A stretch of DNA of 64,000 bases from Craspedostauros australis. Its lineage: Eukaryota > Bacillariophyta > Bacillariophyceae > Mastogloiales > Achnanthaceae. The translations under genes were made by a program, and so were the position numbers. The notes under the pieces are model-generated. The model saw only the letters and a program-made list of their open reading frames with translations, did not search any database and was not told the origin of the DNA. Location: positions 1,736,001-1,800,000 of the forward strand of contig JAMXDE010000008.1 of assembly GCA_026770025.1 (NCBI GenBank), read 5' to 3'. This document shows positions 4,330 through 39,444 of the stretch, in pieces; the first letter of the stretch is position 1, and each line of letters opens with the position of its first letter.

Positions 4330-4937
4330 GCTGTTACTTTCAACGTGTTTGATGGGATGGAAGGATGGAGGAAGAACGGCACCAGGGGACAATTTCCTGT
4401 GTTGCCGGAGATGCCGGGGGTGCTGCTGATGGTGATTTGGCGCCGATGTTCTTGGTCGAGGCTCCTGTGTTGCGTTTGTGGCCGATCTTCACGGCGCCGT
4501 TGTTTGTCGTCGTGGTGTTGAGACCAATTTTGGGGGAGTTCTGGAGGAAATCAGGGGATTCCCCCCCGATAATCGTCAGATTAACGAAAGACAAACATCG
4601 ATCTACGCACGAATCTAGAGAGAGTGAGAGAGAGAGGGCCTGCTCTTGTGTTGGGCAGCAACAGACCGCAATGATGGTGCTGCGCCACGATGCGGCAGCT
4701 ACTCCTACCAATACCGACACGTCGAGAGCAAGGCATATTATATATTGCAGAGTACTACGATGCTTGTGTTCATGTTGACATTATTACTAAAGGTATGCAC
4801 TCACAAGATTGAAGCATGGTGGCATACTTACCATACGTACCATACTGCAGAGCAGTGGAGACGAGGAAAAGAAGCCATCGTTCGACGGATCCGCCAGGCC
4901 ATCATGCAGTAGAAGTATCATCTTTGGACCCATCAAG
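4330..4937. other. Intergenic region NDUFA9 / sorting receptor 1
   Basis: This 608-bp stretch contains the NDUFA9 promoter and the 3' end of the next minus-strand gene. It has an impure GA tract at about 4615-4640 and a homopolymer of seven C near 4561. No gene is recognised. Confidence 0.4.
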
Positions 4938-7444
4938 TTACCCGATGAGAGATTGGGTTCCACCCTGTTGCGCGAAGGCCATTGGGGCGCCTCCGGTTTG
5001 CTGTGCGCCTTCGGGATCATCCAGCGGCATGTAGTCCGACAGTATGCCGCGGACTTGGTCTCTCATGTCCTGTCGGGTCTTGTTGTGGTACCAGAATCCA
5101 GCGCCCGAGAATGCGGCAATGATCACAATCATGGTGAAAGCAAAGGAGTGGTGGGACACGCCGCCGGAACTTCCCTTCGACTTCGGGATCACAGGCGTTG
5201 AATCTTCGCAGTATCCATTCGACAAGCACGTGGTGACGTTGTTGCATCCACTGCACTGGCTGCAGATCTCTGGGCTGGTGCTTTCAGAGAATCCAGCGCA
5301 GATGGCGTTGAATACGTTGGAAGCGGTGAGCTCGCCACGGAGTGGAGCAGTGTTCACGAACGCCGTTGGCAGCACGACGACACCTCGTCTTCGCTGCATG
5401 CCAAGCTCCTCCTCGAGGAAGGTGTTGGCGCCATCACCAACCAGCCCCCCGCTGTTGGACATGCATCTGTCGATCTTTTCCTTGTCGATGCCGGAATGGT
5501 CGTAGACATCCTGGATGCATTCCTCTCTGGTGAAGAAGTTCTTGCGGGTGCAACGCTTGTCGAACTCGGCAACGTACGCCCACCATGGCTGACCGACGCC
5601 GTCGTCCTTTCCGTAATGATCCCAGATACAAAGTCGTCGGAGGGATTCGGTCACCACGTCCGCACCTGAAATACCTCTGTCGAGGTCGTCGTCTGGGTCA
5701 GTCGCGCAGTAGCGGCCGTTGTTCGTGCAGAGGTTGGCACAGTAGTTTTCTCCGTCCTGCGATTGGCAATGCGTTCTCAACCCGTCAAAGATGTACATGC
5801 GGGGCGTGAGCTGCGCCTTCTTTCCAAACTTCTCCGCGATGTTCTTGAATTCGACGAGGAACTCGCGGCTGACTGGATCTGCTGGGACGGACCAGAGCTC
5901 GTATTCGACACGGTCTTCGGCCGATGGTAGATTCCACTTCATCTCCATCTTCACTGGATGGTTGTCTTTGAGCTGCACCTTCACCTTGTCGGCATCTGTT
6001 CGGGTCATGAGGAACGCAGGGATGGTGATGCCACCACCAGATCCGTCGTCTGCCATGATGGGTTCGTTCCCCTCGCAGTCGTCGCTGCCGTACTCTTTCT
6101 TGCAAGCTTCGTCGCTGCACAAGCATTTGTGGTCCGCGATAACGACACCGGAAGCACCTGCCATTTGTGCGTGGCGGACCTGTCGTCATGAACCAAGAAG
6201 CGAATGATGATACAAGTACATGTGTGTTGGAATTACATAAGATATCCGACATTGGAGATCGAAGGATGGAAAGTCAAAGACAACGAAGTGAGTACACGGA
6301 AACCACGGCAGTTGGGTTGGTGCGCATACAGACAATACAGGCAAAGACTGACTGGCCAACCAGCTTGGCATATCTGCATGCATACATGCAACCAGAGCGA
6401 TGATGACAAGAAAGCCAACGCATAGGGGACACGTACCTTCCTAACGAATGTACAGTCCCCACGGTCCACCATCAGAATGAATGGCGGGTTCCAGGAGTGG
6501 AACTCATTGTCCAGCTCGATTTCTGGGTAGCCCTTTGTGGTGTCGAAGTCCGCATCGCAAAGGGTAGAATCGGAGTAGATCACGTTCTGCGAGATGGAAT
6601 TGCCGTAGGGTGGCTTTCCAAAAAGGGCCTCTCGGTGCTCGTAGCCGCCTGGCTTGTCCATGCTTTGTGGGACCTACAATGCGCAACCAAGATGTTGCAT
6701 GTGTTTCGATTGTTGGATTGATCGATCGGTCGATTGGAGAGGCGGAATGACGCGTGCGTATTTTGCGTTGATGAATTGCGTGGGTGTCGAAGGTCGTCAT
6801 GGCAGTACCATGAGTAAGCAGAGAAACACAGCAGCCAAAGAGAGAGAGAGAGACGGAGGAAGATGTGAGTGAACGGACTCTGGTTTGGTTCGGTTTGAGC
6901 TCCAGTTTGAATTCGACAGCAGAGTCATGGAGAGATCGCGCGGAGCAGGTTGTCGTGCCGGCATGTCGGGTCTGTGCGCAGCGGCAAATCAGCAAGATTT
7001 GACATCGGCATCTACGCCGCTGCCTTTGATTTGGGCCACCACATCGAGGCTTCTAGCAATCGTGGCTGTGCTGGCATCGTTGCCAGTCGTCGGGCTTCCT
7101 TTCAGAGCGGGAGGGAGGCCATGATGTCCACCCTCATGACCTTCACTTCGATCAGAACCATGGCGCAGCGTGGCGCCCATTCCAGATATTTTCCAAATGA
7201 AAGCGATCTCCCTCTGCGTGGCCTCATCCTGTTCATGCGCTGCACGGCTCCGTCAATTCTTCTGGTCCAAACACCACCATCGTGGTGATAGTCGCGCAGA
7301 AATCTTTTTGGCCTCCTCGCGTTCATCCCAGATCCCACGAACACGCATGCAAACGCATCGTCATGGACTCACATGAATCATCAGCTTGCTGTCGGCGGAT
7401 GCGGCGGCGGCAGCCATCGCTGCGATGGTCAAGCGCAGCATCAT
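4938..7444 (-). CDS. Vacuolar sorting receptor-like protein 1 (PA domain, type I membrane protein)
   Basis: Three exons (7444-7373, 6673-6437, 6179-4938), all introns phase 0, give 516 residues. Plant vacuolar sorting receptors bind cargo in the trans-Golgi or early secretory pathway and deliver it to the vacuole through clathrin carriers. The signal peptide is MMLRLTIAAMAAAAASA. The PA domain follows (FGKPPYG, FILMVDRGDCTFVRKV, HAQMAGASGVVIADHKCLC, IMADDGSGGGITIPAF). The cysteine-rich central receptor region has GRYCATDPD, ESLRRLCIWDHYGK, WWAYV, CMSNSGG and LPTAFVNTAPLRGEL. A single membrane helix lies near residues 447-468. The cytosolic tail holds YMPLDD at about 486, the tyrosine sorting signal typical of plant receptors. 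EGF repeats of the plant proteins are not seen. It is head to head with a paralogue 1.3 kb away. Intron 2, inside the PA domain, is absent from that paralogue. Confidence 0.88.
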
Positions 7445-8744
7445 GGTCAGTTCTTTCCTGCTTCTCTGCGTGCGTGAGATTGTGCGACTGAGGATTCTTG
7501 CGATACTCTCTCTTGGTGTGATTTCTGGCCGCTTTTGTTTTTATTGTGATGAGATGTCGCAGCACAGAAAATCCTGTTGCGGCAAATTCTCGTGCAATGC
7601 AGCTGATTCGTGGAGACACAACAACACAGAACGACGGAGAGGGGACTTTGGCCTCCGTGGGATGACGCCAAAGTCACAAAGGCAGTGACAACCGTTGCGC
7701 TTCGCGAGGGCATGTTTGGGTGATTGCACGCTGTTGTTCGTGCTCGCAGAAGCGCATGGCGTGGCAAAATGCTCTCCTCTTTTTTCGTCTTGTTGTTTCT
7801 TGTTCGTTTCCTTTCCTTTTCGCAAGGGTGACTTGTCAAGAAGGTGCGCGCCACGACACAGCGCCCCAATCGAATTACAGAACAGAACATTGAACCACAC
7901 ACGACTTTGAATGTGTGTCCGACACAATGTCGTTCCTCATAGATGCCGGACTCAGGATTTAACATAATACGACATTGAGAGCGTTAAGATATCGTTAGCC
8001 CCCGCCATGTTGTCGTGTGTTCACTTCAACAGCCAAGTCTAAGGAAGTCCCTCCAAACATTGATGCTTGGTTGCACGCAAAACGATACACAAACAACAGA
8101 CTCGTGCTTCCTGCCCAGCGAGCAGTAGTTCTTGTTCTCGTTGTTTGTCCGTGTGTTCAACGATGGGGTTTGCGGTAGTACAATACATACAATTGCAATA
8201 GTATATTTTTGGTCATGTGAACGAATTTCATTTCAACGCAATTGGGGAGATCTTGGAATGACTTTGAATTTTAGTCAATGCAACTATTGCCGATTGATCT
8301 AAATCCACGTTGACTTCCAACATGTTCTTGCTTGGTGCCCGGTTGTTCGTGTTTGCGCGTTGGTGGCAATTGTCGTCGTGGTCATCGTGGTTGCCTCTTG
8401 TTTCTCTTTTTGTGCTCTGCTCATCCCTCATGTGACTGTTGGATCACTTGGCCGTTTCGCACGACCTCGCAGCACCCCTGCGGCGCCTCGTGTTGTCTCT
8501 GACTTTCTGCATCCGACAAATTTGCGATCTGTTTTGGTCGTTCACCATCCCACCACACGCATCCAGTACAAACAGGCGGCACGAGCAAGGAGACAAACAA
8601 ACAAGAAAGATAGCAAAACAACAAACACAGAAGGAAGGACACAGAGTATCTGCCTCCGCCTGCTTCTGATCGACACAGACAGACACCATTGGAAACCACC
8701 ACAGGACATTGCTCCACTCCACCAGAATCGTGCCCTGCGAAAAG
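7445..8744. other. Divergent promoter region of the two sorting receptors
   Basis: This 1.3-kb spacer separates the start codons of the two receptor genes and must hold both promoters. Open frames across it have no domain, no initiator context and low complexity. I see no RNA gene. Confidence 0.4.
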
Positions 8745-34279: not shown

Positions 34280-34321
34280 GCATGGATGGGTGGATGGATG
34301 GATGGATGGATACATGGATAC
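34280..34321. repeat. (GGAT)n microsatellite abutting the transposon
   Basis: An imperfect run of GGAT/GGGT units ends in ATAC immediately before the left terminal inverted repeat. The final ATAC (34318-34321) is the proposed left target duplication. Confidence 0.8.
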
Positions 34322-34457
34322 GACCAGGTTGTGTGACGGGACCTGCAGTCGGTCCTGGAGGGGTGGCAACTTACGGGGCTTTCAGCCAAGCCACCCACAT
34401 ATTCATAAACTAGAACAAAATCTAAGAATCACAGTGGACGCCGATTTTGCTTTAATG
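34322..34457 (+). repeat. Left terminal inverted repeat
   Basis: 136 bp, beginning GACCAGGTTGTG. It matches the inverse of 38789-38924. Weaker similarity extends about 17 bp further inside, over the T-rich stretch. Confidence 0.9.
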
Positions 34458-34908
34458 CCTTCTTTTAATTTTTATCCACCTTTGTAGATTTACGGTCCTC
34501 TTGGTCGAATATGAACACTGCTCCGTGATGATCGCAAGGCATTGATTAGCTTTTCCGATGCAAACAACGCAATGTGCGCAGACACGTTCGGGAAAAAACT
34601 TTTTTTGACGGGTTGCGTACGGAATTTGACATTTCAGCGACGTCATTGTTCGGCCTGTCCGAACACGTTTTTGAAATAACGAAACGTTAGTTGACGTTAT
34701 CATTCAAATTCAAATTTGGCTCTCGTCACATGTCACCAATCTCCTCACATTTTGCCGCCAAATCGAATTTTGCTTTTCTGTGGTGGTGTGCTGTGCTTGT
34801 GGCATGCTCATGTAGTTCTTGTATTGTCACCTTCTTGCACTCCTCCTGCTCAGTTTATTTCCATCATTACTAGTTTTCTCTATCCACCCATCAGTACCAA
34901 TCAGCATC

Positions 34909-37900
34909 ATGCCCGTCTCTACCACGAAAGCTGCGTCGAAGGACGCCAATCCTTCTCCCTCCAAGAAGCAGCGTTTTCCCTCCTCTCCATCCGTGCGTCC
35001 CTTCCCATCCAATCCGATTGATTGCAAGGAACTCTTCGCACCATCTACTGCTGAGAAGCTCTTGCCTCCATTGGATATGGATGGTGAGCAGCACAATCCA
35101 ACTTCTGCAACAGACAAGCTCCTCCCTCCTGTGCTCGAAGGCGCGACCTTCAACAACGAGTGTGACATTGAGATCCTAGGCAACCACGAGCAAAATCGCA
35201 CACTCAATGCAACCAACGAGAAGCTCTTCGTCTGTGTGCACATCACCACCGATAATGGCATGATTCTTGACACCTCCAAGGCCACAGTCCAGGCCTTTGG
35301 ACAGGGCTCCAATGCTGGGACAAAAGTGCATGTCAAAGTTTGCGTCCCAACTCCTCCAGCTTTCCCCGCACCCCTTCCCGCACCGACTATCCAACCAGCA
35401 AAGAAAGGCAAGCGCATCCAATGCCGCAAGGCTGGCGACAACGAAGCCTTCCGCCCCAAGGGACGCAACAAAATCAAGAGCAGGAAATCAAATGCGGGAA
35501 GATTCCAAAACAAGCACAACATGAACAAGAGAGATGCGTTTGAAACCATCCACAAGGTTTGCAAGAGCTTGGAGTGAAGAACCTTGCGACTGTGCTGACC
35601 AAATTTCCTCGTTGCAGATTTGTATTGGGGCGCAAATCCAACAAGCAAGTGTGGAGCAAAGCGAAGAAGATCTTCGCGGTGGCCTCCAATGCGCTGTGGA
35701 AAGCGCTGATTCTGGCAATGAACTTGCCAGTTCCTCAGATGGAACAGGTGGTGGTGTTCGTGCGCGCAGGGGTAGACTTGCCGCCTATCAAGCTGGCTCC
35801 CAACCTCTACGCGATTTGCCTCGTCGGCAAGAAAAACATTGCACGCAAAGCAAGGTGCATTCTTGCCATGTCTGTCTCGCCACGCCAATGTACTAACCTC
35901 CTCTTGCGACACAAGAGCGAACTTCCTGACGATCAGCGTCTTCGCTTCTTGCCAGAGCAATACACCATCACACGGGGCCAGCTCCTCACTCTGCGCAACT
36001 ACTACGAGCTCTTGCGCGAGGGCAATGTGCTTGGTGCTGCTGTTCACGACTATCGTGTCAGCACATACAGCTTGGCTGGCATGGTGTCCTTCATCAGCAA
36101 CACAACCACATACAAGGTGGGCCTTTGTCACAATATCAAATTGGGAGGGGTGATATTTGAAAATGTGTCAGTATTCGAATGTGGCAGAACAAGCGTAGAC
36201 GAGCTGTTCCACATGTACAAGATTACGACGAACAATCCAGTCAGCAAGCCAGCATTCTGAGCAATGACGGGCCTGCTCACACGCAGAGACAAAGTGGTTA
36301 CTGGTCTCTCCTCTTTTGAAAACTACTTCTTGATGGCAATGAAGACGTTGAAGGAGATGCTCATGCGCTTGAATACCCTACTCGAGGATTCATTCAACAG
36401 TGATGACGGACACGACGACCTAACTGTGGAGTATATTCAAACCTGTGAGACATTGGTGCGCGATCTGGACCTAATGATCACATGCCTCAAGTGGGAGTAT
36501 ACTGCGTCGCACATGCAGATCAAGTGCAAAGAAGACTGCATGCACTGCGCTCATTTCGCGCTTCGCCGCGATCCAAAAACGTGACAGGCTAAATCTACAC
36601 TCAACACCACCACCACAACAGCACCTGCCAGCACCGATATGACATGCGTGGTCATTCATCCTCCCACAACAGCAACAGAGTGTGATGCCAATGCCATTTC
36701 TCCCATCACTCATGATCAACAAGGCAAAGTATGCAACAGATGTGGAGACACGATGCGATTCATGGATGTTCACGTCGCACCATTCATCGAGACGCTCAAG
36801 GCCAATCATCTTGGCGACCATGAGGATGAATTAAGCAGGATGCTGGAGGCAGTACTGGGCTTCAACAATGAGATCACTGTGTACATGGCACACCGAGTGA
36901 GAGCAAAGATCCAATTCAATCAGATGAACAAGTACAAGGCCAAGCTCAACAACAATGACAAGTGCGCCTATGTCGTCATCAATCATAAGCAGAAGATTCT
37001 GCTGACAGCGCAAGGAGAATTGCAGACAGAGTACTGGGGCAAGAAGGGCATGTCGCTCCTTGGCATTATGATTGTCACTTGCAAAGATGACGAATTCACG
37101 TATCGCTTTGTTGACATAATTGTTCATGACCTGCCAACCCAAGACACACTTAAAGTTGGTGGGCTTCTCAAAGCCATCCAGAAGAAGGTACGCGATCTCC
37201 TACCATCGGTGACAGAAATCATGCTGCAGTCAGACAACGCTGGCTGCTTTGCCAGCCACGAGCACATCGTGCTCGTCTCATCACGGATCAACAAGAATGC
37301 GTCATGCAACAGACTTCCCAATTTGTCATTTGGATCTACACAGAAGCCCAAACCGGCAAAGGGCGAATCGACACTCACTTCGCCTACATCACTATCGTAC
37401 TACGATCCTATGTGCAAAGTGGCGGCAAGATTCAAACCGAACACGAAATTTTCGTCGCGATGCGAATGGGAAATATCAGAGGTACTACCACCGTCTTAGT
37501 TGACGCATCGGGTTTGGAAGGTCGCTGTGTGATGCACAAGACAAATGCACGCATCAGGTTCCGCGCGAAGGGCATGAATGTACGATCAACGCACAAGGTG
37601 CAACACAGAAACGGCTATGCAGACGTACTTGCAGCTTCAAATGTTCCTGATCCAGTGCATGTGGAGGAAGCTGAATGGGAAGACTATGACGTCATGAATT
37701 CCAAGGTTCCTATCATGATAGAACACCGGTCCACACAAGAGCCACTTGCAGCAACATCACCACGGAAGCAGAAAAAGACCCTCAGGTTCGCGAAGAGTGC
37801 CACTGAAAGCAAGGCGCTGACGTACCTCGAAGGGATCAACATGGCAGCCTTGGAGACACCTGACGTAAGTAGTGTGCTGCAGGACACCACAGCAGCAACA

Positions 37901-38233
37901 GAACATCCGCGATTGGCTGAACCTGGCTGGGCTGCGAAAGCCGTACGACGTAACAAGCCCATTCCCCCATACCTGGTGGAAGTGTTGGAGGAGGTGTGCA
38001 GAGTGGCACGCGCGGACCCGAAGAACAGACCAACTGAGTACGAGGCATTCAGGCGGTGCATGGAGACGACCGAAATGAAGACTGACTGGTATGCACGGGT
38101 ACACGTGAACCCAATGCGAGTGAAGCAATACATGTCCGCGTCGTACCAGCGCACGAAACCGAAGCCCACGAACATGAGTACCCTGGAAACCACGATAAAC
38201 AAAAAACGCGACAAACACAACGAACACAACTAA
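34909..38233 (+). pseudogene. Decayed transposase of the 34.3-38.9 kb element
   Basis: Four reading blocks form one broken coding sequence. 34909-35577 starts at ATG and has a Ser/Pro/Lys-rich leader ending in FETIHKVC. Block two, 35559-36260, continues in another frame as ELGVKNLATVL, so a frameshift lies near 35556. Blocks two to four share one frame but are cut by TGA at 36258-36260 and 36582-36584. Block four (36639 on) holds a CNRCGD pair, YWGKKGMSLLG, and LQSDNAGCFASHEH. A further frameshift near 37285-37320 leads into YTEAQTGKGRIDTHF and IRGTTTVL, running to 38233. These strings resemble an RNase H-like DDE transposase family known to me from eukaryotic genomes by its 'DNAGCYHS' and 'GKG-CD' signatures, but I cannot name its superfamily. 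The expected first acidic residue seems to be Asn (VVINHKQKIL). Confidence 0.7.
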
Positions 38234-38276
38234 CACCCCACCACTGACGAACGCGAACAGCACCCACACAGAGATC

Positions 38277-38492
38277 GTGCCTGCACAACACACAACAGCA
38301 GATGAGAAGGAAATCGCGCTGCAACAAGAAGAAAACGAAGCATCGGAGCAAATTGCGTGCGAGACACAAACAATGAAGGAGAATACGGAATCTCCGGAGT
38401 TGGTGGAACAAAATGTGAGGACACAATTGTTGCGGCGAGTCAGAGCTGCAATGGAGGCAAGTTATGACACACGTGAAACCCAATTAAGATGA
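38277..38492 (+). pseudogene. Short charged open segment inside the transposon
   Basis: 71 codons rich in Glu and Gln, with the helix-like stretch EIALQQEENEASEQIACE and a C-terminal VRTQLLRRVRAAMEAS. It follows the last transposase block and may be the remains of its C-terminus or of a second element gene. It has no recognisable domain. Confidence 0.3.
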
Positions 38493-38788
38493 AAAGGGGT
38501 CAAGATGCAGATTATGAGTCTTATCGATGTCGTACGAGTCTGTGCAACTGCTTCACTGCTGGATCGTCCTTGATTGGTGCACGTGTTCACAGCGTAACGC
38601 CAATTCAACGGTTTCACACGTATCCTGGTTTGGAGGGACTAAGAAAATAAATTAGCACTGCAATTGACATCGATAATTCTTCTTTTGGTGATACGAATCA
38701 AGGCACCAAGACACCGAATCTGGCCGTAGTGCGCTAGTCGTGTCTAGATGAGCGCGAAATTGATGGGTCCATAAAACTTAAAATAAAC

Positions 38789-38924
38789 CATTAAAGCAAA
38801 ATCGGCGTCCACTGTGATTCTTAGATTTTTCTCTAGTTTATGAATATGTGGGTGGTTTGGTTGAAATCCCCGTAAGTTGCCACCCCTCCAGGACCGACTG
38901 CAGGTCCCGTCACACAACCGGGTC
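38789..38924 (-). repeat. Right terminal inverted repeat
   Basis: 136 bp; read on the minus strand it begins GACCCGGTTGTG and follows the left repeat without gaps. It is followed directly by ATAC (38925-38928). Confidence 0.9.
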
Positions 38925-39444
38925 ATACAGAGACCACCTTCTGAGCAACATCAAGACACACAAGACTCGTTTGGACGGAAGCAGCGGTACAATACAATAC
39001 AGGCAAAATAGACTCCAGTTTCCTACCTGAATCAAGCTAGTCGAATGACGCTTTACGAGAATGTCTCATCCAACGCACAAAACATCACAAATTTCGTCGC
39101 GACAGACCACCTTGTCTGCACGGCACGACCCGAAGAACACAGCAGCGGCAGCTACGGGGCGGTGAGGGAGGTGAGCACAACAGAGAAGGACGAAGGGTTG
39201 GAGCTGGTGAGGCAGAGAGGAAGGCATTCTGGACAGGGACAAGGCTGAGAACAGAAGACACGACGAGAGGTGCAAAGCATCAAGAGCGTGCGCCATACGA
39301 GCAACGAGCAGGTCGGAGAAGGCACGACCACACCTGAGACAGACAAAGACAAAGCAAAGGAAGCCCCTCGCACTCGCTGCCGCTCTCGCACGACCACGAT
39401 AGAACGAAGACGAGTGAGATACCGAAAGGCAGACAGCCCCGGAC
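38925..39444. other. Spacer between transposon and large coiled-coil gene
   Basis: This 520-bp stretch should contain the promoter of the next gene. Minus-strand open frames in it are probably shadows. A GT-type donor (CAG then GTAGGA on the minus strand) lies near 39025 and is the only hint of an upstream exon for the segment left of the transposon. Confidence 0.35.

Follow-up and report, generated by a model that had tools for sequence, protein, structure and literature searches.

A DNA transposon family with long inverted repeats and NTAN target site duplications in the diatom Craspedostauros australis

The window, a stretch of 64,000 nucleotides of Craspedostauros australis DNA (assembly GCA_026770025.1, contig JAMXDE010000008.1, positions 1,736,001 to 1,800,000), contains a 4,603-bp element with inverted ends (34322-38924), located between two copies of ATAC. 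The element is very probably a DNA transposon of the cut-and-paste type with a 4-bp NTAN duplication and a putative DDD transposase, and the copy in the window is a fossil of it. The family is multicopy, with defined ends, NTAN duplications, open reading frames in relatives and identical cores at some loci. From this copy, an earlier note had proposed a DNA transposon that has long inverted ends and duplicates 4 bp, and the proposal was supported by many copies and by the empty sites of four other copies. The element is of an ordinary kind, and the evidence for its insertion is unusually clean. It represents a well-bounded, recently active algal transposon lineage, of which many copies are intact and for which empty sites and several variants of the ends are available. 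The lineage is good material for studying how long-ended elements select 4-bp sites centred on TA, and it might serve for gene delivery in algae.

Structure and decay of the window copy

The terminal inverted repeats (34322-34457, plus strand, and 38789-38924, minus strand) were identical at 130 of 136 positions with no gaps, which bears out the gapless similarity of about 96% given in the earlier note. The ATAC it had placed on both sides was found at 34318-34321 and 38925-38928. Similarity of the ends continued to ~34480 on the left and started from ~38766 on the right; a repeat tool extended the inverted pair to 162 nt at 92% (34319-34480 and 38766-38927). The left flank (34280-34321) is a GGAT simple repeat, and another ATAC is found 8 bases upstream.

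The coding region, on the plus strand, is broken across several frames by frameshifts and TGA stops. The N-terminal part of the transposase is preserved in a 222-aa frame starting with MPVSTT (34909-35577), with 69-97% identity to other copies (matched stretches of at least 220 residues). Past a frameshift, a 238-aa frame (35544-36260) and a 107-aa frame (36261-36584) follow in the same reading frame, each ending in TGA. The next remnant (36585-37499) includes the first and second conserved acid positions. The first is N (codon 36981-36983, VVINHKQK), where intact relatives have D (VVIDHKQK). The second is intact (codon 37233-37235, QSDNAGCF). Another frameshift leads to the remnant at 37154-38233, in which the third is intact as well (codon 37370-37372, GKGRID), and an acidic tail at 38199-38492 forms the C-terminal part. 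The two strings on which the transposase had originally been recognised, QSDNAGCF and YTEAQTGKGRIDTHF, were both present, but not in one frame (36585-37499 versus 37154-38233), because the window copy is frameshifted.

The window copy is dead, given its frameshifts, its stops and the N that replaces D at the first of the conserved acids, a state that the earlier note did not mention. Its mobilisation would be possible only through a protein from another copy. The decay leans to CpG: measured against the majority of seven copies, the sequence has 75 differences, of which 45 are C-to-T or G-to-A changes. Of these 45, 31 were on CpG, which accounts for 536 of 4,594 positions.

Copies and relatives in the genome

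The 136-bp repeat was compared with its own genome (a 74.8-Mb assembly of 90 contigs, with the window in contig C6) and was found to be multicopy, with 40 scored matches (the best 40 of 115 candidates). Twenty regions were fetched from these matches. Both ends were present in 14, and only one end lay in the stretch fetched in the other six. Two-ended copies were mostly 4,446-4,865 bp long, with larger ones of 5,916, 8,719 and 8,720 bp and a short derivative of 1,423 bp (L044), in which the left repeat match is short.

In the window family itself, most scored copies were fragments or contained stops. An intact relative on contig C57 (L040) has one uninterrupted frame for a protein of 1,197 aa, and the two 8.7-kb copies likewise have open frames. 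A search with the 1,197-aa protein gave 13 relatives of near full length at 46-49% identity among the best candidates scored, 12 of them with no stop. Two elements on contigs C64 and C8 (5,982 and 5,984 bp; 47-48% protein identity) form a second family, the ends of which are homologous to those of the window family; its inverted ends measure ~163 bp at 83%, and its duplications are CTAA and ATAG. With a 300-aa core as the query, at least 131 loci were scored (131 of 370 candidates). The core contained a stop in six of them and none in 125. Identical 900-nt cores were found in one set of three loci and in a separate set of two loci, meaning that the lineage moved recently.

Several copies carry additional segments. 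The 8.7-kb copies L037 and L038 are 97% alike and have a common insert, with different duplications (TTAT and ATAT); hence, the composite was apparently mobilised as a whole. The insert in L038 (about 4841-8732) contains a piggyBac-like gene (PF13843, 4.5e-24), and its borders are ACTAGT, not TTAA. A segment of ~400 bp bounded by ATGCC is located directly upstream of the start codon in L040 (1124-1528), L038 (4395-4796) and L037, and L035 is precisely without it. In or next to one copy (L043:1576-5142) lies a 1,188-codon frame for a Copia-like polyprotein, the family being named by eye from the sequence.

Two host gene families were also counted in the genome. PF00504 (light-harvesting) gave 61 matches. 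The silicon transporter family PF03842 is very large, with 88 matches over many contigs; 32 of these span at least 483 of 513 model positions, and 28 of the 32 are without a stop. This count is far above the number known for diatoms. Taken together, the two families indicate that the host is probably a photosynthetic alga that uses silica.

Element ends, duplications and empty sites

A perfect 4-bp duplication was found in 14 of 17 two-ended copies (14 of 16 in the tabulated set, which excludes L044), and all were NTAN, with TA in the middle. The duplications were TTAC, ATAA, GTAT, ATAG, ATAC, TTAT and ATAT in the first seven copies and CTAT, ATAG, TTAT, ATAG, ATAC, CTAA and ATAG in the other seven. 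When the flanks of the 16 elements were re-paired at random in 20,000 trials, 2.1 matches were obtained on average and never more than 8, compared with 14 observed. A TA duplication of 2 bp, as in Tc1/Mariner, was rejected, since the outer two bases of NTAN were duplicated as well; in the empty sites, they were single.

No matching duplication was found at L033 (TTAC/GTAA), L048 (TTAT/ATAA) and L044 (ATAG/TTAT). In L033 (500-535), nine bases are missing from the start of the left end, which abuts a near-palindrome of flanking host sequence (ATCCATCTCGTTTACGAGATGGAT). This could be the scar of hairpin or snap-back repair.

GACC was present at 31 of 32 element ends, the exception being the damaged left end of L033. 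From base 10 of each end, the box GWGTGA-N3-GACCTGCAGTC is common to the window family and the second family. This is a likely transposase binding box.

The joined flanks of 14 elements (10 + 4, with L048, L033 and L044 left out) were searched in the genome, and the best 40 of 746 and the best 40 of 183 candidates were scored. Among the matches listed, four of the 14 elements had a paralogous site that was empty and contained the 4 bp once. These sites were read base by base for L035 (ATAG), L039 (CTAT), L040 (ATAG) and the C64 element (CTAA). For the latter, one empty copy with 100% identity across 192 positions is located ~10 kb away from the occupied site. The joined flanks of the window copy gave its own right flank only and no empty site among the matches listed, so that the empty sites anticipated in the earlier note were obtained for other copies and not for the one it described.

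Some insertions are located at the edge of multicopy repeats, which lie on the right-hand side of L037, of L050 and of the C8 element. The repeat matches for the L050 and C8 flanks start at the insertion point or at most 20 bases from it, and the L037 flank has the same repeat as the L050 flank.

Certain observations count against the cut-and-paste reading. Three copies (L033, L048 and L044) are without matching duplications, six of the 20 fetched loci are one-ended in the stretch fetched, the listed matches include no empty site for the window copy, and no clean excision footprint was seen.

Transposase and placement among named superfamilies

An alignment of 23 cores showed D at the first and third conserved acid positions in all 23 and at the second in 21 (N in L060 and L078). 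The conservation of D696, D780 and D826 suggests an RNase H-like DDD transposase. Two AlphaFold2 models were poor (mean pLDDT of 36.1 and 45.8). In both, the first acid is placed on or just past the first strand, the second shortly past strand four and the third immediately ahead of a late helix. The predicted order of strands and helices around the acids would be that of an RNase H core, save for the fifth strand, which these weak models draw as a helix. The RNase H-like part of the earlier assignment to a DDE family is plausible from the conserved acids and the weak models. Because E817 is just as invariant as D826, with E in all 23 cores, a DDE triad is still conceivable.

Sequence searches of Pfam, NCBIfam, PHROG and PDB gave no convincing match for the transposase (best E of 0.013), and Foldseek with the weak models gave no match at E 0.001. 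The Pfam search works on this genome, because the nested piggyBac-like protein in L038 was found. No relative beyond this genome was confirmed in viral contigs, prokaryote genomes or phages. As these collections hold no eukaryotic genomes, their negative results say nothing on algae or animals. The C-terminal core (TE-Q-GK--D ... GTT--V) presumably resembles uncharacterised proteins of sponges and cnidarians.

Transposition may then proceed as follows. A single protein of ~1,200 aa from intact relatives would bind GWGTGA-N3-GACCTGCAGTC at both ends and cleave beside the terminal GACC by a DDD site formed by D696, D780 and D826 of the intact protein, the last being the presumed third acid. After excision, which we infer along with the chemistry of cleavage, the element would be joined into NTAN with a 4-bp stagger, and this would give rise to the 4-bp duplications.

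Compared with the published descriptions of named superfamilies, the family would most likely belong to Sola or to a sister group similar to it, a placement to which we give about an even chance. It is favoured because the Sola description is compatible and because Sola has been reported in stramenopile algae: Sola-1 and Sola-2 families are listed for the brown alga Ectocarpus (PMC12477816) and Sola for the diatom Cyclotella cryptica (PMC7466962).

Less probably, the elements form a superfamily-level lineage apart from Sola and all other named groups, characterised by an NTAN target and GACC termini of its own. It would be a lineage seen so far only in this algal genome, with the GWGTGA-N3-GACCTGCAGTC box, a single transposase of ~1,200 residues and a recent burst to well over 100 copies. 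The library searches without a convincing match and the lack of a confirmed viral or prokaryotic relative point this way, and so does the target: in two amoebae, Sola2 has AWWT or AT-rich targets and inverted repeats of 12-21 bp (PMC3627910), and only one of the 14 duplications here (ATAT) fits AWWT, the comparison of targets being with Sola2 alone. However, the searched libraries exclude eukaryotic repeats, meaning that the absence of a match means little, and the general Sola description fits. The literature search found no paper on an NTAN-targeting superfamily, which is no proof of absence from print. If the core is unrelated to Sola, the lineage would be one more superfamily.

It is more doubtful still that the family diverged from within a different named superfamily whose duplications are short (Ginger2, Chapaev/CMC, Academ or KDZ). 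Academ elements encode a transposase plus an accessory nuclease. Ginger1 and Ginger2 are similar in their 4-bp duplications and in their inverted repeats of about 40-270 bp, and Ginger2 prefers RTATAY, an AT-rich target that also contains TA (PMC2836005). But both have TGTNR ends and a Gypsy-type integrase according to the same source, whereas the ends here are GACC and no integrase or other Pfam match was found at the cut-off. The CMC group (EnSpm, Transib, Plavaka) is described with C(2)C and H(3-4)H between the second D and the last E, and the KDZ groups with duplications of 7 or 8 bp (PMC12730594); here, CxxC was absent between the second acid and D826, taken as the third, in 23 of 23 cores, and the duplications are 4 bp. 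The long intact frames in many copies could also be ascribed to a repeated host gene family that is no transposon and has inverted flanks by chance; this is next to impossible in view of the precise ends and the 4-bp duplications and is refuted by the empty sites.

PiggyBac and Kolobok are likewise DNA transposons with 4-bp duplications, but they target TTAA (PMC9587614), which was found in none of the 14 duplications. Moreover, Pfam recognises the piggyBac-like protein nested in one copy and not this transposase. In hAT, P, MuDR, Kolobok and Dada, C/DxxH lies between the second D and the last acid (PMC9587614); it was absent from all 23 cores between the second acid and D826, again taken as the third.

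In view of Sola, the earlier note went too far in stating that the 4-bp duplication fits no common superfamily. The Sola description includes DDD transposases, 4-bp duplications, inverted repeats of 11-1124 bp and elements that are mostly 2-9 kb long (PMC10741241). A triad of D residues is conserved here at 23, 21 and 23 of 23 cores, yet E817 is found in 23 of 23 and the models are weak. The inverted repeats of 136-163 bp and the element sizes of 4.4-6.0 kb, or 8.7 kb with the nested insert, resemble those of Sola, as do the 4-bp duplications of the two-ended copies and their empty sites.
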